Shown here: one piece after another, positions 5,226-64,000 of the stretch
Layout: the number at the start of each line of letters is the position of its first letter
Numbering within the stretch: the first letter of the stretch is position 1
NCBI GenBank assembly: GCA_028819435.1
Contig: JAPPLK010000089.1
Coordinates: 1 to 64,000, forward strand
Direction of reading: 5' to 3'
DNA: 64,000 nucleotides
From: Nitrospira sp.
Lineage (GTDB): Bacteria; Nitrospirota; Nitrospiria; Nitrospirales; UBA8639
Notes under the pieces: generated by a model
Told to the model about the DNA's origin: nothing
Database searches by the model: none
Seen by the model: the letters and a program-made list of their open reading frames with translations, nothing else
Position numbers and translations under genes: made by a program

Positions 5226-6047
5226 TCAAAACAGAGTCTTGGATATTTTCTCAACCCCCTTTATGAGTTCCTTAACTTCATCCTTGGTCGGTTCGCGGTC
5301 CTTGTTGTGATCGCACAGGTTGCGGATGTCGCTAAGCCGTTGGACCTGCCGCCACATGGGAACATCCAACACATTCCCATTTTTAAGAAGATCGTTGAAA
5401 TCGCTAATTGTTGGATCCTTCTTGCGCGTCTTGACGTCGTGATTTGAAGCTACTTGCGCCAAGTGTTTTTCAAGGACCACTCCAGCAATCGCTCCGGCAC
5501 CGCGAAGAAAGCCACGCTCTAGCAGTTCACTTGCTGAATCAAGTTCCGAATCAAAAAGGTCCGCTTGTACCATTTGCCGAATATCAAACAAGGTGCTTTC
5601 GAATCGACCTCGGGCAGATCCAAGTATCTGAGTTTGATTGCACAAACGCATAAAGACACTGGCGACATCGTCGAAACGTTTTTTGCCTGTTGAGGAATTT
5701 TTTGTAGCTCGTGCGCCGTTAAGCCAATCTTGGATGGTGAAAGTCAAAGCGTCAATTTCTTTACGACGCCCATCTCCTTTGTACAATTGCTCGAATTCGT
5801 GAATACGGTCTGGGATAAGTTGGCGCACAACAGCGCTCGCCTCTGTGTACCAACCCTGATATTTGGCCATGAAGATCATCTCGCCTGTAATACTCTTCAA
5901 TTCCGTCCTTTTGTCAAAACCAAGCAACTGCAACTCTACATCGTTGAGATCGTCGAGAGTGGTTGCTTGCAGGGCCGACCAAAGCGTTTCACCAAGGTGA
6001 ACGAGTCGATTGAGATCGTCTTTATATCTTCCGAGGTTCGAAGCCAT
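5226..6047 (-). CDS. HEPN-like domain protein
   Basis: Helical C-terminus with 'LSDIRNLCDHNKDREPTKDEVKELI', which contains an RNxxxH (R-X4-H) HEPN RNase-type motif. Confidence 0.5.
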   Translation of the reverse strand: MASNLGRYKDDLNRLVHLGETLWSALQATTLDDLNDVELQLLGFDKRTELKSITGEMIFMAKYQGWYTEASAVVRQLIPDRIHEFEQLYKGDGRRKEIDALTFTIQDWLNGARATKNSSTGKKRFDDVASVFMRLCNQTQILGSARGRFESTLFDIRQMVQADLFDSELDSASELLERGFLRGAGAIAGVVLEKHLAQVASNHDVKTRKKDPTISDFNDLLKNGNVLDVPMWRQVQRLSDIRNLCDHNKDREPTKDEVKELIKGVEKISKTLF

Positions 6048-53544: not shown

Positions 53545-54378
53545 TCAGGTCAGACCGATGATTTCCCGTCTAGCACGCAGGACCATGCGGAGACTGACGT
53601 GGAACCGACGACTGGCATAGGCGGCAAGCAGGGAACGATGACAAAGCTGGTTGATTCGGCGAGGCACGCCTCCGCTCAGGTAGTGCGTGAGCATCATGAC
53701 TGCGGGAGGAAACTGGAACCGGGTCCGCGGGTCTGCGATCAGCAGGCGATGCCGGATATAGTCCATGGTTTCCCGGCAATCGAACGGTTTTAATCGGAAT
53801 CGAACGCTGATGCGTTGCGACAAGGGGCGAAGCACGCGATGGGACAACGTTCGCTCGAGTTCGGGTTGGCCCACAAACAACAAACACATGAGCTTTTCTT
53901 TTTCGGTGTCCAGGTTTGACAACAGCCTGAGACCTTCCAACATTTTCCCGCCTAACCGATGCGCTTCGTCAACCAGGACGGCTACGCGCTCATCCTGCCC
54001 GGCCAATTTCAGCAACACGTGAGACAACCTGCGTTGCAAAGCGCCGAGACCGTGATCTTCGGGGACCTGTCCCGTGAGGTCCCGATAAATTGAACCCAGT
54101 AGATCCACGTACGATTGATCAGGATTTAAGAGATACGCAAAGCGTATACCTTTCGGAGGATGCCGCAACAGGTACCGGCATACCAGCGTTTTCCCGACCC
54201 CGACTTCCCCGGTCAGCATCGTCAACTCACCACTGGCGATCCCGAATCGCAAATGTGCCAAGGCTTGCAGGTGTTGCGGTGACCGGAAAAAATAATCGGT
54301 GTCCGGCGTCATCCGAAACGGGGCTTCGGTGAAGCCCAGTTGTTCGTAGCACACGTTCAGATCGAGTGTATCCATCAC
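53545..54378 (-). CDS. ExeA/MshM-like AAA ATPase
   Basis: 'FTEAPFRMTPDTDYFFRSPQHLQALAHLRFGIASGELTMLTGEVGVGKTLVCRYLL'. Confidence 0.88.
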   Translation of the reverse strand: MMDTLDLNVCYEQLGFTEAPFRMTPDTDYFFRSPQHLQALAHLRFGIASGELTMLTGEVGVGKTLVCRYLLRHPPKGIRFAYLLNPDQSYVDLLGSIYRDLTGQVPEDHGLGALQRRLSHVLLKLAGQDERVAVLVDEAHRLGGKMLEGLRLLSNLDTEKEKLMCLLFVGQPELERTLSHRVLRPLSQRISVRFRLKPFDCRETMDYIRHRLLIADPRTRFQFPPAVMMLTHYLSGGVPRRINQLCHRSLLAAYASRRFHVSLRMVLRARREIIGLT

Positions 54379-55262
54379 GTCACCCGCAGAATACGAGGCA
54401 TGAGGAAGATGACAAGTTCGGTGTTTCGCTCGGCCTGATAGGTGCCGCTGAAGAACGTCCCAAGTACGGGAAGATCTCCCAGCAGGGGGATCTTCCGTTC
54501 GGTAGTAGTCAGTTGTTCCTGGATTAATCCGCCGATAATCACCAACTGGCCGTCACGGACACGGACCAGCCCTCCGGACTGTTTCACCTCCAAAACAGGC
54601 GCGGTGGAGCCATTCTGTGATTCAACGGTATCGGTCAGCCGGGTGATAATGGGCGAGACGTCCATCATGATCCAGCCGTCCTGGGAAATCTGCGGGGTCA
54701 CCGAGAGGACGAGCCCCGAGGTCACAGTCCGCACCTGCTCCGTAATAATGTTCCCGGTCCCTGCCGTCCCTTGCGTCGTCGTTGAGGTAAAAAAGGATTG
54801 ATCCGTCCCGACCTTGATCAACGCCGGCTGGTTGTTCAGCGTCAGAATCCGGGGTTGGGACACCACCTGCACGTCGCCCTGCTCCTGTAAGGCTTGGATG
54901 ACGCCTTCAAAATCACCGTCGTTAAAACTGAAAGCCGCAGTCGCCGCCCGTGCGACAAAGCCGCCGGCCGGCGCCGTGATGACGTTGTCCAGCTTGAAAC
55001 TGCCCTTGGGCGTACTGAGATCGATCCGGCTCCAATCCACTCCCAGGCTGTAATCGTCCCGGAGCGCGATTTCATAAATTCTGGCCTGGATCTCAACCTG
55101 GCGATAGAGAGAATTGCGGACGTTGACCAGAAACATCGCCACCTCTTGAACCCGTCTGTGCAAATCCGTCACTTGAATGGTGCCAGACAACCGGTTCACC
55201 ACGAAACGTCCTTCGTCTGAGAGGAGGGTACCGATCTGCGTTTCAATCTCTTCCCAAAATTA
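54375..55262 (-). pseudogene. 5'-truncated MshL/PulD-type secretin
   Basis: Secretin C-terminal domain 'VVSQPRILTLNNQPALIKVGTDQSFF...'; frame continues upstream of the first start codon (FWEEIETQIGTLLSDEGRFVV) to a TAA at 55262-55260. Confidence 0.75.
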
Positions 55263-55495
55263 CATGAGCCCTTTAAACGCCTGTATTTATAGGGGTTCGC
55301 GTTTGGCTCTACTGGTCAGTTATACTGATCGTTATACAGATTTGAGCGGGTCATTCGCGTCCAGTCCTGTTCCTTCCTCTGGCACTCTGCCTGTTCCCGT
55401 TACCAAGGAAGCCAGGCGCCCGCCCTCACGTGAAACGACCGAGCCCGCTGTGGTAAATTCCGTCGTCTTGCTCCGATACGTAGCGCAGGATCCGA

Positions 55496-58400
55496 ATGGC
55501 CATCCTTAGAATCGATATCGAAAGGGCCCTCGATGAGCTCATCTCTCAAGAGGAGTGGCTACGTTTTCAGAGGCTGGCGGTAATACTCGGCAGGCAGCGC
55601 TGGCCCAAACTCATAGCGCACCAGCCCAAGAAGGATTTCGGCCTTGATGCCTACGTGCCTGGGAGCGAGACGCCGGAAAAGGTCGGCAAGGGACTCGCCG
55701 CCTCGATCACAGCAACGCAGGAAAAAGTTTTTGGCGACGCAAAAAAGGCCAAGGAAAACTTTCCTGATCTAAAGACGCTTCTCTTCGTGACGCCAGCCAT
55801 AGTCGGCAACTCCAAGCGAAGGAAGTGGGGAGAGGCCATTAAGAGAGACTACGACCTCGAGCTGCTCATCATCGAGCGTGAGGATGTCATCTCGCTGATG
55901 ATGATGCCGGAGAACGCTCGGCTCTACAAAAACTTCCTCCACCTCAATATCGATGTCGAACCGGAGGTCGCAGTTCTCATTGATAGAACAAGGCATGCTG
56001 CCGACGCTGTCACTCAAGCATGGGCTAGGAAAACAAAAGGCCATCCGCTCATCGATCTCACAGCGGTGCAGCTCGACCTGAATGGTGCGGAGTCTGCCGA
56101 CGTGCTGTCGCTTGCGCAAATCGACCAGGCGCTGTCACAGAGCGGTCGTATCGTTCTCGAAGGGCCCGCCGGCCGCGGAAAGACCACGACGCTGATACAG
56201 CTCGCGCAGCGCGCGTGCAATGCCAGCACACCGCTCATAGTGGGACTTCCGTTGTGGATAAGGTCGCGCCAGAGCATTCTCGAATACATTGCCTGCATGC
56301 CTGTGTTCCAGGCCGAAGGTCTCACGTCAGCTGACCTCGCGCGGGTGCAGCAGACGGAACCTTTCCTGTTTTTGCTGAACGGCTGGAATGAAATTACGGA
56401 GTCGAGTTCCGTGCAGGCAAACGATGCACTCCGGGAACTCGAGCGTGACTTTCCGAGCGCGGGCATCCTTGTCGCGACCCGCACGCACCACTTGACCCCG
56501 CCGCTGCCCGGCGCATTGCGTCTGCGGTTGTTGCCCCTGGGACGCGGGCAGCGGGCAGCTTACTTGGCAGACCGCCTGGGCGCGAACGGTGCCGATCTCC
56601 GCGCCCTTGTCGAAACCGACCCGTCGCTTGATGGGCTGACTCGCACGCCGTTCATCCTGTCGGAAGTCGCTTCGCTGTTTGAAGCTGGCACCGAAATTCC
56701 CTCTACGAAATTCGGCGTCCTCGCCCAGGTTCTACGTCTGCACGAACAACGTGACGAGCACAGAAACTCGCTCCAAGCGGCACCGATCTTCGGCCAGCAA
56801 ATGGCCTACCTGAAGGCTCTCGCAAATAAGATGACCCGCCTCGGTGCGGTGGCATTGTCCGAGGCTGATGCGCGCGCCGTCGTTACCGCCGTCGCAGGAG
56901 AGCTTGTGGACCGTGGACAGATCGAGCGGGCGGGGGCACCGGAGGTCATCGCGACGCTCACAGCGCACCACGTTCTTGAGCGCATTGAGTATCCGGAAAC
57001 GGTGTTTCAATTCGACCATCAGCAGCTTCAGGAGTATTGCGCAGCGCTCGACGTCCGCGCGCCGCTTCTCGACCTGCGCGACGATGACTGCGACGCGATA
57101 GACCGTTTCACTGCCGACTACGTGAACGATTCGGCGTGGGCGGAACCGCTGCTCATGATTGCCGAGACTCTTGCTGAACAGACCGCCAATGCAGGAACCG
57201 ACAGGCGAAACATCCACGCCGGCAAGAAGCTGGTGGATATGGCGCTCATGGTTGATCTGGTATTCGCCGGTGAGCTTGCGCAGCTTTGCGGTCCGACCGT
57301 CTGGAATGAAGTCCGCGCGGCGGTTGGCGAGCGCTTCCGTGCCACGCACGCACTCCCCGACGGGAACTATCAGCAGTATGCCATCGCCGCCATGCTCGCA
57401 AGTGGCGCGGACGACTTCCACGACATCATCCTGCCGCTCTTGTCGGGACAAGACAGGCAAACGCGGCTTCGCACGTACCGGCTTTGGCCGGACATCCAGC
57501 TTTCGTCGCTCGGATCGAACTGGCGCGAGCACGTGCGCGGCTGGAACGAGGAGGCGCGAGCAGATTTCGTCTCTGAACTGCTTTATCATCGTGTCGATGG
57601 CGAGATTGCCTCCTTCGCTGTGGAGGACAACAGCGTCGCGGTGAAGAAGGCGGCTGTCTCCGGTCTCATGTGGACCGGGTCTGACGACGCGCTGACTCGT
57701 GTCCTCGAGTCGATGGATGCGCGCACTTTCGAAGAGGTTGCGCGCAAAAACCCCGATGATATGCCTCCGGCCCTCAGACCTAGCGCCATCGCGGCGATGT
57801 GGAGATTTATCGAGAGGACGACTGACCATCCGGCCCGCCTGCGAACCGCGCTTCATCTGATCGAACTCGGCGAGCCAGGCCTGGACGACGTCCTCAAGGA
57901 TGCGATAGCGGCGTTGACCGGCGGCGACATGCAGAACCTGGATTCGCACTACATCCTGCCGGCACTTAAATATCTGCATAAGTCCGATCCGGCTTGGACC
58001 AGCGAGTGGGTGGTAACCCAGATTGCCGAAGGCGTCCACTACGGGTACGAGGAATGGTTACCATTCGCGACCGTCATTCCCGATGACCTCGTGGAGACCT
58101 ACCTGTATCGCCTTGAGACCGAAGACCTCAAGCCCTCGCACCTTGAGGGCATGCTAGCTTTGATCGCTACGCGGGCGGATGCAGGGCTTGCGACGAGGTT
58201 GTTTAAGAAGATCCGCGAACTGCGATGCAGGGTGGATGCGGACCCCAGCCAGCAACATAAATTCGAGTGGCGAGTGATGAGACAGTTGAAGGCTGTGTTT
58301 CATCGTCTTCCCGGCGACCTCGCCGCGGCCGGCGTCCTCTCGTCCGTCAAGGTCGGCGACCCCCTCGACATCAAAGTCGCAGTTGACCTATTTAGCAGGG

Positions 58401-60001
58401 TCGCCAGGTCCGACCTGGAACCACTACGCGTCGGCGACGACGACCTGAAGGCACGCCTCCGCACATACCTGAAAAGCAGCGTCAAGCTCGTGCTCTGCCA
58501 GGATGACTTCAACGGCGAGGAAAAAGCCAACCTAGCATCGTCGATTGCACAGGTCGGAAAACCCGAAGATATGGTCGACCTAGTGCAACTCATCCGCGCC
58601 GACATCGAGAGGATGCACCGAGGCCGGGATGCGCGAGCGGCCGGCGACCGTGGACCCCGCGCCAATGGCGGCATCATGAGCTACGCCGGATGGCATATCG
58701 CCGCCGTCATGCACCTCGATCCGGCCAGCGCCGAGCGGGTGCTTATTGACCTGCTTCCCGAGCCGGAATACTTCTCCGACGTCGCGGTCGCCATGGCGTG
58801 CGATTTCTTGCCAAAATCGGAACGTTCCTTCGTTCGGAATCTACGATACGATTTGATGTGGGCCGCGCGCGACGACCGCTCCCCCCCGCCTGACGACGAC
58901 CAGCGGCGCACACGATTCGTCGCTGCACTCAATGCCGAGATCAAGCGCCTGCGAGAGCAGAACCAAGACGGGAAACCCGACGCCAGGCCTAAAGCGTGCG
59001 CAACGGCACTTGCCACAATCGACGGCCGCGGGTCGGCGGCAGCGGTGCTCGACGTAATTGCCATTCCCGCACAGTGCGAATACATCTGTCTCGACGCTGC
59101 TGAGCGTCTGTTGATGGCGGGTGTCATATTGCCCACGACCACCACATTCGCTCTGGTCGATTCCATCTTCGAGCGGACAGACGAGCGGATGCAGGATTCA
59201 GACAGATACCTTCTCCCCCGCGTCCTTGCACTCTGCCCCTTCGTTGACGACCCGGCGGCAGGGATCGCCAAGATGCGCGACGTACTCCGCAAGCGGCGGT
59301 TCTGGGGTTACGAACTGCGCGAACTGATCACCGCCCTCGGCGAGAGCCGATCGGATGCCGCCATTGACCTTCTGTACGAACTTGCCTCCGACGCGCAGAC
59401 GTTCGAACAATGCGCGGACAATGTCATCAACGCCGTCGCCATGCTCGATACGCCGCGTGCACGCGAACTGCTCCTGAGTTTTGTCGATCCGGACATAAGG
59501 ACCATCGCGCTGACGCACCGTTCTCACCGCATGGACGTGGTGATCGCGCGGCTCGGGGAACTCGCCCAGCGCAAGCCGGAAACTGCCGGGCGGTTGCAGA
59601 AATTGTGCGAACGCGATCTGCCGGAGATCAATCGGCATGTCCTCTCGAAAGTTATGGGCTGGTTCGGAACGCCCGAGGCCCTGATCGCCAATCTGAACCT
59701 GATCGATGACGCTAAACCCTCGGCGATTCCACGAGGCGTCTGGGACCAACTGAAAAGCGCTTTCGTCGAGCGACAACCCTACGGGCAAAATTCCAACACC
59801 TTTACGTTACACGCGCGAGCCTCAAACGAGTTACGCGCCCGGTTGTTCAGGATGGCACTCGAGGATAGTAAACGGCGAAAATCCGCTTTCATGCTTCTCG
59901 GACAAATCGAAGTATGGCGCCTTGAGCATGGCAGGCCGACGGACGAACCCCGTCACCCCAATCTCGCATCCGGTCAGTCTTGGCCGCCCATGGAGTTCTG
60001 A
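55496..60001 (+). CDS. NACHT-type STAND NTPase with N-terminal nuclease-like domain and HEAT-like C-terminus
   Basis: Walker A 'VLEGPAGRGKTTTLIQLAQRA', Walker B-like 'PFLFLLNGWNEI'; N-terminal 'KKDFGLDAYVPG...GLAASITATQEKVFGDAKKAKENFPDLKTLLFVTP' restriction-endonuclease-like; long helical repeat C-terminus. Confidence 0.75.
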   Translation: MAILRIDIERALDELISQEEWLRFQRLAVILGRQRWPKLIAHQPKKDFGLDAYVPGSETPEKVGKGLAASITATQEKVFGDAKKAKENFPDLKTLLFVTPAIVGNSKRRKWGEAIKRDYDLELLIIEREDVISLMMMPENARLYKNFLHLNIDVEPEVAVLIDRTRHAADAVTQAWARKTKGHPLIDLTAVQLDLNGAESADVLSLAQIDQALSQSGRIVLEGPAGRGKTTTLIQLAQRACNASTPLIVGLPLWIRSRQSILEYIACMPVFQAEGLTSADLARVQQTEPFLFLLNGWNEITESSSVQANDALRELERDFPSAGILVATRTHHLTPPLPGALRLRLLPLGRGQRAAYLADRLGANGADLRALVETDPSLDGLTRTPFILSEVASLFEAGTEIPSTKFGVLAQVLRLHEQRDEHRNSLQAAPIFGQQMAYLKALANKMTRLGAVALSEADARAVVTAVAGELVDRGQIERAGAPEVIATLTAHHVLERIEYPETVFQFDHQQLQEYCAALDVRAPLLDLRDDDCDAIDRFTADYVNDSAWAEPLLMIAETLAEQTANAGTDRRNIHAGKKLVDMALMVDLVFAGELAQLCGPTVWNEVRAAVGERFRATHALPDGNYQQYAIAAMLASGADDFHDIILPLLSGQDRQTRLRTYRLWPDIQLSSLGSNWREHVRGWNEEARADFVSELLYHRVDGEIASFAVEDNSVAVKKAAVSGLMWTGSDDALTRVLESMDARTFEEVARKNPDDMPPALRPSAIAAMWRFIERTTDHPARLRTALHLIELGEPGLDDVLKDAIAALTGGDMQNLDSHYILPALKYLHKSDPAWTSEWVVTQIAEGVHYGYEEWLPFATVIPDDLVETYLYRLETEDLKPSHLEGMLALIATRADAGLATRLFKKIRELRCRVDADPSQQHKFEWRVMRQLKAVFHRLPGDLAAAGVLSSVKVGDPLDIKVAVDLFSRVARSDLEPLRVGDDDLKARLRTYLKSSVKLVLCQDDFNGEEKANLASSIAQVGKPEDMVDLVQLIRADIERMHRGRDARAAGDRGPRANGGIMSYAGWHIAAVMHLDPASAERVLIDLLPEPEYFSDVAVAMACDFLPKSERSFVRNLRYDLMWAARDDRSPPPDDDQRRTRFVAALNAEIKRLREQNQDGKPDARPKACATALATIDGRGSAAAVLDVIAIPAQCEYICLDAAERLLMAGVILPTTTTFALVDSIFERTDERMQDSDRYLLPRVLALCPFVDDPAAGIAKMRDVLRKRRFWGYELRELITALGESRSDAAIDLLYELASDAQTFEQCADNVINAVAMLDTPRARELLLSFVDPDIRTIALTHRSHRMDVVIARLGELAQRKPETAGRLQKLCERDLPEINRHVLSKVMGWFGTPEALIANLNLIDDAKPSAIPRGVWDQLKSAFVERQPYGQNSNTFTLHARASNELRARLFRMALEDSKRRKSAFMLLGQIEVWRLEHGRPTDEPRHPNLASGQSWPPMEF

Positions 60002-60265
60002 CTTTCCTCCTTGACATAATGGGACAGTTACGCCCTTCGCTCACATCTCAGTAACGGATCCGCTCCGTCCGGCATCAGAAACTTTGTCGACTTGGAGCTT
60101 GTCCTTTCCAGTGATGATGTGTATGCGGCTGGAGTTCTATTTGTGGTAGCGGGGTGACTGGCCCACGTCCCCCGCGTCCAGCTAGCCGAAATCACCTACA
60201 TGCCCGCCTAGACGGGGTTTGTGAATCTGGGGCTCGCCCCCGAGCGGCGCTGAGGGAGAGCGTGC

Positions 60266-60295
60266 GGAGAACGTTTCTCTAGAGAAACATTCTCC
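60266..60295. repeat. 30-bp palindrome GGAGAACGTTTCTCTAGAGAAACATTCTCC
   Basis: Self-complementary except for one pair (G.T). Confidence 0.6.
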
Positions 60296-61538
60296 GACAG
60301 AACCTGACGCGGATGGCGTTCACTTGATCGGGCTGGCGCACTTGACGGATCTGGACGACGACGCGTCGTCGTTGGGTCTCGGCGATGAGGGGTTCCATGA
60401 TCATGAGTGATCAGGATTGGGCGATCCGGGTCCCAGGGGGCAGCGATGTAGGCGCAGGCATTAGTCGGCCTCGTTGTCTTTCATGATGGACCTGGAATGT
60501 GATGGAACGCTATGAGACTGTCTCGTGGCTTCTCTCCGACAAGCTGGCACTGGCCACACCAGGGAGGGAAGACAAGGGAATGAGGACCAATTAGCAGCGA
60601 TATGTCGAAACGCTGATTGCCGAGGAAGAACCCCTCTCCTCCCTCAATCTCACCCGTCGATCGGACTACACGAGATATCAAACGCATGGCGAGGAAGGCT
60701 TGGGAATCATGAGGATCGTGGCCTTCTGATGTTGGAACAACGCAGGACCAAGCGGCTGGCTCTTTGCTTGGAAGAAAGGGACCGTCAGGTGCACGGACCA
60801 GGCGTGGAGGTGCAGCAGCGACGCCAGGTTCATGTGATACGCGTGTCATCATGACCGGTGAGCGCATGACACCATGTCGCGAACAAGGAACTCATCACGC
60901 GCGCGTCTCATGCTCGCCACCCCGATGAAGGCCCTCGGTCATCGGACTGTGCTGGGTGTCACGAGCAGTCGCCCAACCTCGTGTTCTCAGGCCCCACACA
61001 AAGACAAGACCCTCTCGAAGGACCACAGCGGGCAACAGGCCCGACCACGAAAGAAGGCCGAGTACGCGACAAGCTGGTCGCATCACGTGGAGGAGGCGAG
61101 GCCGCGTCCCCCCGCCTCCACAACGAAAGGCCTCTCAAGCTGTGATCGGCCGCTGTGGGACCCGCCCGGCAAGAAGGCACGGTTTTCCGCGTCACGGGGA
61201 ACACCCTCCGCGATCCTCGAGTCACATCCTCAAGATGCAACCGGTCACCCTCCGGTTCGCTAGGAGGGGTCACTCCGACCAAGGTGTGAATGACCGCCGT
61301 CGTCCATTGAACCCATCGCCCTCCGTGAACTTGCCCCACCCGTTCCGTGTCTCGCCCCCTTCGAACGTCCCCAAAATACCGCGCAGTTTCTCAGGGAAAC
61401 TGGTTGGTTAAATCCTTCAAAGCGCGGTCGCCTTACGGGGCGCCAGGACAGGGCCACCTCACTCGCCATGTTCGCTGCCCCGTCCTGGTTCTCGCCCCGT
61501 GGCCGGGGTCGTGTCTCGCGCATTCTACCGCCCACTCT

Positions 61539-61572
61539 ACCCCTGACACGACCCATGTCGCGTGTCAGGGGT
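61539..61572. repeat. Perfect 12-bp hairpin ACCCCTGACACG...CGTGTCAGGGGT
   Basis: Arms 61539-61550 and 61561-61572, followed by palindrome ATTCACCGGTGAAT (61575-61588). Confidence 0.65.
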
Positions 61573-61655
61573 GAATTCACCGGTGAATGCGGCGGTACAT
61601 TGACCGGCTCCAACGTGTCGCCGGTCGCGGGACCGGCCCGGGTCCGGTCAGGGCC

Positions 61656-61952
61656 GGGCGCCGGGAGCGCCGGCACCCGGCAGAGGCTCCGCCTCTTTGC
61701 CCAACGCGCCGCTGGACGCGGCTTTTTGGCCAATTCACCGTCGGGACCTGGGAGCGCCAGGTCCCGACCAGGGGCGCCGCCCCTCTGGCACCACACCCCC
61801 CGCTGGACGCGGGGGAAGTGGGCCATTCACCCCGCTGCGCGGTCCCGGCTGTTGCGAGGGGTCGCCAGCCGTGACCAACCCCCGGAGAGGTTGCGCTACG
61901 CTCCACCTCCCGCCGCTGGACGCGGCTTGAGTTCCAGGGGTTGGTCACGGCT
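61656..61952. ncRNA. Candidate structured element: repeated hairpin cassettes (stem-variable, loop-conserved)
   Basis: Hairpins with loop GAGCG (61657 and 61741), loop TGGAC (61708-61722, 61799-61813, 61912-61926) and the recurrent ATTCACC boundary; 16-bp inverted repeat 61867-61882/61937-61952. Confidence 0.45.
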
Positions 61953-62852
61953 CGCTCCGGCTGCACACGTTGGCGCTCAGTTTCCCGCATTTTGGGGGCG
62001 CGTTATTGCACTTTTTTGACGTGTGTGCGCGAGCCGGGACCGCGCAGCAGCCCAACCCGTGAGGCGTCGCTGGGGCTCGGCCTCCCGTCGCCTCCGCCTA
62101 GGGGCCGAGTCGTTGGTCTTCCGGTCGCCCGTCACCTCGTCTGGGGCCGATGGTGTCGGGCTCGTTCACGTCGCATCTGTCGATCCACGTGAACCGCACC
62201 GGCGGCCGGTTCGCTGGGGCTCACCGGACCGCCTGCCTCGATTTGGGCATCGAGTCTGCGCCGCGGGCCAGGTTGGCGAGAACGACCTGGATCGTCGCCG
62301 TCAACAATCGGGGATCCTTCACAGAAGTCAGAAACTCGCTGACCCCGTGGCCTAGTTTTTGGGGGAGGACTACTCGTATGGAAGCCCTCCCATCGCTCCA
62401 GGGACCACGAACTACTCTTCCGACGGTTCAGCAACTTAGCAATAAGGATCCAAACGACGGACCCAAGCGAGAAGTCTTATCTGATATGGATTCGAGACCG
62501 TCTTCTGATCGAAGCAGATGAGTCGCCCGTTTATTGTGCGCTGGAAGCGGATTGTGATAATGAAGTCAGGCGTGCGTGGGGACGAGACAAGGACGTGGTT
62601 CACATCGGATTCTGGTACCGACTGACGATGAATCTCTTACGACACGCTGAAACGGAATTCAAAACCGTTGCCTCTGCTTCCTGATCGCTTCATTCAGTTC
62701 CCAGCCTCACACTCTTAACTCTCATTCCCGTTGTAAAGTAAATTTTTCACCGAAAACGGTTGACTTTCGTTCGATCGTGATTATCTTGTCAGTCGAGTCG
62801 TCCCATGACCGTTACGCGCCCTTCACCTAAACTATCGAGAGGAGGATGTCGA

Positions 62853-63083
62853 ATGCCAAATCCGAAGAATTTCTGGACTCAGCAACGTCAGGACGGGAAG
62901 TGGGAATCGAAACGGGAAGGGGCTGACCGCCCTTCCAAGGTGACCGACACGCAAGCCGAGGCGTGGAAATACTCCAAGGAACAAGCCAAAGATGAGAGAG
63001 GCGAAGCCTACCTCAAAGGACGGGATGGACTGATCCGCGAGCGAAACACGTATGGCAAGGACCCGCGGTCAATTCCAGGATAG
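62853..63083 (+). CDS. DUF2188-like small protein
   Basis: 'DGKWESKREGADRPSKVTDTQAEAWKYSKEQAKDERGEAYLKGRDGLIRERNTYGKDP' with GAGGAGG SD before MPNPKNF. Confidence 0.75.
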   Translation: MPNPKNFWTQQRQDGKWESKREGADRPSKVTDTQAEAWKYSKEQAKDERGEAYLKGRDGLIRERNTYGKDPRSIPG

Positions 63084-63223
63084 AATCGGCGGGCGGAAGA
63101 GGGCTCCTGGTTCTCCTGCCATCCCTCTTCCGCTCCCTTCTGGGCCATGCCGGGGAAGCGACTCACATATAAGGATTGACGGGAAATTAAAACCCGCGTT
63201 GTTAGTTGAGAGGAGGATTTACA

Positions 63224-63499
63224 ATGAGTCAATCGTTCGCCATTCAAAGAGGTTTTTATAGAATTGTCTCCATCTCCTACGAACAGATGGCATGTAAAGG
63301 CTTCCAGTCAGGCCAAGTGGCGATCACAGGCCTTTCGTGTATCGTTGAACATGCCCTTGATGAACACGGACCTCGGACCCAAAAACATTTGACGCTTGGC
63401 CCGATCCCGTTCGTGTATTACTGGGAGGAGGCGGTAAATGACGAAGTCCGTTGGAGACTATCGGATCGGCTCGATCAAGAACAGGGGGTACGGAATTGA
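63224..63499 (+). CDS. Small hypothetical protein
   Basis: GAGAGGAGGATTTACAATG start context; 91 aa. Confidence 0.5.
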   Translation: MSQSFAIQRGFYRIVSISYEQMACKGFQSGQVAITGLSCIVEHALDEHGPRTQKHLTLGPIPFVYYWEEAVNDEVRWRLSDRLDQEQGVRN

Positions 63500-63668
63500 C
63501 CGCGAAGGGGTAACGCGGTAGGATACTCACCGTCGCTTGGGATCGTCTGTGTCTCCGCCAGGGTCTACCGACGATCCCGGATGACATTTTGAAAAATGCC
63601 TCTCAAGAGGAGGCTTTCGTGCGTCCTAACAAAAACCTAATGGCCGGGCAGCCAGGAAGGAGTTCGTC

Positions 63669-63854
63669 ATGGACTTTCGCCATTATGAGGAAACCTGTGC
63701 CGACTGTCAACTTGTTAATGATTTGAAAAAAGTGTTTGACGTTCTATCTGGTCTGCATCTAGGGGTCCCGCATTGGTTCTTCTATGACGACGATGCCTTC
63801 GTTGGCTGGATGCCCCAATGCCGAATTTTACAAGTTTTAAGACAACAAGCATGA
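63669..63854 (+). CDS. Small hypothetical protein
   Basis: AAGGAG SD, 61 aa MDFRHYEETCADCQLVND... Confidence 0.4.
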   Translation: MDFRHYEETCADCQLVNDLKKVFDVLSGLHLGVPHWFFYDDDAFVGWMPQCRILQVLRQQA

Positions 63855-63856
63855 GG

Positions 63857-64000
63857 CTAGCGGGGGTGGCGTTTCCGCCACTCCTCCGGCATGATAAACG
63901 CACCTACCCAAATGCCCCGTTTCTCCTCTCGCGCCTCTTCTTCTTCCGGTATGTACGCCTTGGAATGCTTGCGATATGCCACGGCATAGCCATTCACCAC
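63857..64000 (-). CDS. C-terminus of a thermonuclease (SNase-like) family protein, runs off the window
   Basis: Minus-strand frame reads VVNGYAVAYRKHSKAYIPEEEEAREEKRGIWVGAFIMPEEWRKRHPR*, the SNase C-terminal pattern; absent from the ORF track because the start lies outside. Confidence 0.75.
   Translation of the reverse strand: MVNGYAVAYRKHSKAYIPEEEEAREEKRGIWVGAFIMPEEWRKRHPR

Follow-up and report, generated by a model that had tools for sequence, protein, structure and literature searches.

Bacterial NACHT proteins are related to inflammasome sensors of animals, and the effectors of the bacterial proteins are as a rule recognized by intact catalytic motifs. STAND defence proteins are known to be modular, with different effectors exchanged on a shared core. 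One described system, bNACHT25, joins a PD-(D/E)XK domain to a NACHT module; residue D48 of its nuclease is needed for defence, and its activation degrades DNA (PMC12169576). A second, Avs4 (AVAST type 4), is a STAND NTPase whose structure has been solved in a complex with a phage portal (8dgf). Here we describe a NACHT clade in which a predicted nuclease fold is under strong purifying selection, its catalytic Lys and the Walker B Asp are replaced, and a single gene has moved across phyla. The clade offers a compact test of whether NACHT proteins need canonical catalysis.

The window analysed is a stretch of 64,000 nucleotides from Nitrospira sp. (contig JAPPLK010000089.1, positions 1 to 64,000). 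It contains an open reading frame with an ATG start at 55496..60001 on the plus strand, which is the strand of all features of the gene described below. The initial annotation had recognized the 1501-aa product, but the position it gave, 55262, lies in the upstream region. Conservation of the frame exceeds chance, as judged from 18 full-length homologues, the invariant G, K and T of Walker A, and a median dN/dS of 0.23 over all pairs, and the frame is a real, conserved gene. G+C content is 0.60-0.62 across 56-60 kb, above the value of about 0.55 that prevails in the window. The sequence set used throughout (19 members) consists of the window copy, 17 homologues from a genome collection and one from another family of the same phylum (76% identical). 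The protein resembles bNACHT25 and bNACHT32 (clade 6, PMC12169576) in its predicted N-terminal PD-(D/E)XK fold, central NACHT, C-terminal sensor region and single-gene organization, and differs from them in having NCAB2 in place of NCH1 and S-x-T in place of Q/E-x-K. Pfam gave no match named NCH1 at the C-terminus, where NCAB2 was matched instead.

The NACHT NTPase core (residues 200-360, 56093..56575) is covered by Pfam PF05729 at residues 219-359. In the window copy this match has an E-value of 1.8e-5 and 25.1 bits, 1.6 below the curated cut-off of 26.7; Pfam NACHT matches all 19 members, the best of them with E 5.4e-7. Walker A, GPAGRGKTT (residues 223-231, 56162..56188), is intact, and G226, G228, K229, T230 and T231 are invariant. 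The Walker B region, FLFLLNGWNEI (residues 290-300, 56363..56395), has Asn295 in place of the Mg-coordinating Asp and keeps Glu299; N295, N298 and E299 are invariant in 19/19. A further motif, FQFDHQQLQEY (residues 504-514, 57005..57037), lies in the winged-helix region, with F506, H508, Q512 and E513 invariant. When residues 1-555 were modeled (pLDDT 80, pTM 0.64), the best structural match was Avs4 bound to phage portal (8dgf, E 4e-11), followed by NLRC4, NOD2, NLRP14 and NLRP3, with TM-scores for the whole multi-domain model that are modest (about 0.3-0.46). NLRC4, NOD2 and NLRP3 share the NACHT fold and differ by their animal CARD/PYD effectors and LRR sensors. Thus, assignment to the NACHT/STAND class, which had been proposed from the motifs, is supported by the Pfam profile in 19/19 members and by the predicted fold, in which Foldseek recovered a NACHT core. 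Avs4, a STAND NTPase of similar size, is the best structural match for the N-terminus as well as for the core; its sequence identity to the window protein is low, about 14%. The Avs4 profile of PADLOC matched none of the 19 members, weak Avs2 matches were seen in 1/19, and PADLOC (2023), which has no model for the clade, did not call it. A search of PDB sequences with the whole protein gave no useful match.

Residues 561-1415 (57176..59740) form a predicted helical, HEAT-like region that is the putative sensor, with HEAT_2 detected in 11/19 members. It is followed by an NACHT C-terminal alpha/beta 2 domain (NCAB2, PF22726) at residues 1418-1497 (59747..59986, E 1.5e-27), which scores 96.3 bits against a cut-off of 27 in the window copy and was found in every member. 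The initial annotation had missed this domain, as well as the Asp-to-Asn change in Walker B and the island interrupting mshL that is described below. The N-terminus and NACHT had median pairwise dN/dS values of 0.15 and 0.14, compared with 0.29 at residues 561-900; the putative sensor region thus evolves fastest, and the effector and switch slowest.

The N-terminal domain (residues 1-150, 55496..55945) is predicted to have a restriction-endonuclease fold with an alpha/beta core. An AF2 model of residues 1-165 had a pLDDT of 84 and a pTM of 0.80, and its single Foldseek match under E 0.001 was an Avs4 chain (8dgf_B, E 1.9e-4, TM 0.53); with weaker E-values, the model matched Can2 (a cA4-activated nuclease), EcoT38I and FokI. 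Support for this fold is therefore good but not overwhelming. No Pfam model matches the domain, and no useful match was obtained when the N-terminus or the whole family was searched against Pfam, PDB sequences and PADLOC. In the 274 genomes of the class to which one Pseudomonas homologue belongs, a search for the same N-terminus in other proteins returned the known orthologue alone. Within the canonical PD-(D/E)XK motif, the candidate catalytic Asp, D51 of GLDA at strand 2 (55646..55648), is present in 19/19, and the (E/Q)xK is replaced in 19/19 by S70-x-T72 at strand 3, within ASITAT (residues 69-74, 55700..55717). E19, Q25, K45, D47, K65 and D81 are likewise invariant among the 19 sequences. 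The earlier suggestion of a PD-(D/E)XK-derived N-terminus with an altered catalytic site agrees with both the fold prediction and the uniform S-x-T. Because S-x-T and the Walker B Asn are found in 19/19 while dN/dS is low, they point to a conserved variant rather than random decay. The window copy itself has nine private changes in this domain (55496-55945) at otherwise invariant positions, including G21W, G26R, R44P and S79F, compared with 0-5 in its relatives; these changes may be a sign of relaxed constraint, with the effector of this copy losing function.

More distant NCAB2 proteins include L003, L004 and genes on Rhizobium plasmids, whose NACHT-like cores are 24-28% identical to that of the window protein (24-26% for L003 and L004, over about residues 156-1499). 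NCAB2 occurs in both L003 and L004, and L004 also has a weak NACHT match. Their N-termini differ from the predicted restriction-endonuclease fold of the window protein and carry an HNH-like pattern (CSDPSC..AAHI..N...C..H) that was read by eye and to which Pfam gave no name; the related Rhizobium plasmid genes are annotated as HNH endonucleases. L003 and L004 also keep the Walker B Asp, with LLLDGWNEL versus LNGWNE in the 19-member clade. Judged by these sequence patterns, the HNH-like and putative restriction-endonuclease N-termini on NCAB2 proteins conform to the swapped-effector pattern.

The 18 homologues are 59-86% identical to the window protein and occur in at least six phyla. Their hosts include Rokubacteria, Thiobacillus, Planctomycetota (twice), Burkholderiales, Pseudomonas, Moraxellaceae, Nitrospira, Deltaproteobacteria, Myxococcus, Desulfobulbaceae, Albidovulum, Thiobaca, Halomonas and others, several of them represented by MAGs in which the contig may be misassigned. 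The distribution is sporadic: matches were found in 4/296 genomes of the phylum and in 1/11 of the genus (0/10 other genus genomes). One weak match to the NACHT region was found in a phage collection. DNA similarity stops near the start codon and near the stop codon in every homologue locus except that of the closest relative, L011, which additionally shares 245 bases upstream of the gene, back to 55251. Since DNA similarity is confined to the gene, the mobile unit is one gene. A fixed partner gene was ruled out, as only the gene itself is common to the 18 loci, and among the flank families listed none occurred in more than 2/77 scanned proteins; the earlier idea that the protein may act alone fits this pattern. 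The flanks of the homologues likewise include defence families, with matches to ThsB, PtuA, RT-SLATT, AbiE, type I R-M and PDC, in counts that were pooled and have no background control.

In the window, the gene is the leftmost one of an island inserted in mshL, which encodes a type IV pilus secretin. The C-terminal half of mshL (TIGR02519) lies at 54375..55259 on the minus strand, and the N-terminal half is at contig 82171-82964; the gene is intact in most relatives of the genus. Alignment of mshL to these relatives places the left junction, CTTCCCAAAA, at 55250..55259, and a junction copy, CTTCCCAGAA, at contig 82171-82180, so that the ends are a direct repeat of ~10 bp. The island is 26.9 kb long (contig 55260-82170), and the left third, 55260-64000, is within the window. 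Since mshL is disrupted, assembly of an MSHA-type pilus is probably disrupted as well. A tyrosine integrase (PF00589, E 4.2e-20) is located at the right end of the island. Also present are DSR1 (1564 bits in PADLOC), a methyltransferase and a restriction enzyme of type II (MTase_II and REase_II), a homologue of staphylococcal nuclease, one SLATT-like and one GmrSD_C-type HNH protein, and a fragment resembling an integrase, which was read from sequence and has no Pfam match. In L011, the left end of the NACHT element adjoins CCTCCCAAAA (5740-5760), which resembles the right end of the island in the window; this left end suggests tandem integrations at one type of att site. A gene for a small DUF2188 protein (PF09954, E 6e-18) is present in the island at 62805-63083.

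We consider it probable that the gene encodes an immune sensor of the bacterial NACHT (STAND) class which works solo, is horizontally mobile and forms part of the cargo of an integrase-borne defence island. By analogy with bNACHT25 and Avs4, the C-terminal helical repeats and NCAB2 would recognize a product of a phage or mobile element, the NACHT module would then change its nucleotide state and oligomerize, and oligomerization would juxtapose the N-terminal restriction-nuclease-fold domains, which would attack nucleic acid and halt the infected cell. In this scheme, the domain order, the NACHT and REase folds, conservation, single-gene mobility and island context come from sequence and prediction; ligand sensing, oligomerization, nuclease action and phage defence are what we infer. 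A role in defence, which the initial annotation had put forward and which is still a deduction, is strengthened by the location in an integrase-borne island that contains DSR1 together with a pair of type II R-M genes. Some STAND proteins are transcription regulators, and the protein could be a regulator or a housekeeping member of this class, but this appears improbable given its sporadic occurrence (1/11 in the genus, 4/296 in the phylum) and cross-phylum transfer, the island with DSR1 and R-M, the Avs4-like fold, and a Pfam search that gave no DNA-binding regulator domain.

The weakest step of the proposed mechanism is the chemistry of the N-terminus, since S-x-T invariably occupies the position of Q/E-x-K. 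Loss of Q/E-x-K and of the Walker B Asp in all 19 members, together with the nine private N-terminal changes of the window copy, speaks against the immune-sensor scheme as set out above. A variant of it exchanges the last step alone: the REase-fold domain would not be a nuclease and would bind nucleic acid or protein, or carry out other chemistry involving S70/T72, K65 and D51. The invariance of S70-x-T72 and the absence of the Q/E-x-K lysine in 19/19, at a dN/dS as low as 0.15, favor this variant, as they indicate that the N-terminus is conserved for something different from the canonical site. However, D51, K65, D81, E19 and Q25 are invariant too, and some nucleases of the REase fold have their catalytic residues at other positions, so the domain may still be a working nuclease. 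We regard a non-nuclease domain as a serious possibility that falls somewhat short of an even chance, and our confidence in it overlaps with that in the immune-sensor scheme. The broader description of a widely transferred NACHT clade with a rewired restriction-fold effector, in which S-x-T and the Walker B Asn would be the marks of a STAND sensor that works by binding or another chemistry in place of canonical DNA cleavage, is more tentative still and on balance unlikely.

A structured element of ~1.1 kb (61270..62350, +) lies next to the gene. It is rich in G+C and folds far better than shuffled sequences (z -8.4). Nine copies have 219 predicted pairs, 47 of them with compensatory changes, and in the 3' part of 222 nt both sides vary in 14 pairs, whereas shuffles gave 7.5 such pairs and slid controls 0-2. 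Strong structure, covariation and adjacency in this genome favor the possibility that the NACHT gene and this element form an RNA-linked defence system. The initial annotation had also suggested a possible joint action of the protein and the downstream RNA/DNA element, a proposal whose sole link was adjacency to the 60.0-62.8 kb tract. We rejected such a partnership: neither DNA similarity nor a covariance model revealed the element in the other 18 NACHT loci, it is multi-copy elsewhere, and six genomes of the genus that have it gave no NACHT match, so that an RNA-linked system is very improbable.

The element is an independent, dispersed repeat restricted to the genus, separate from the NACHT gene and outside its system. 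Copies, among them those in L029-L038, are present in 9/14 genomes of the genus, in up to about ten places per genome and often at contig ends. The covariance model of the 222-nt 3' part detected it in 6/296 genomes of the phylum, all of the same genus, and a search of Rfam with the element gave no family matches. By its sequence features, it is possibly a large non-coding RNA or a structured mobile repeat, maybe undescribed. We also observed a pair of 35-nt inverted repeats at 60148-60182 and 61802-61836; the right one falls within the element and is conserved in the other copies of that element, and the left one is isolated, at a distance of 1.6 kb.
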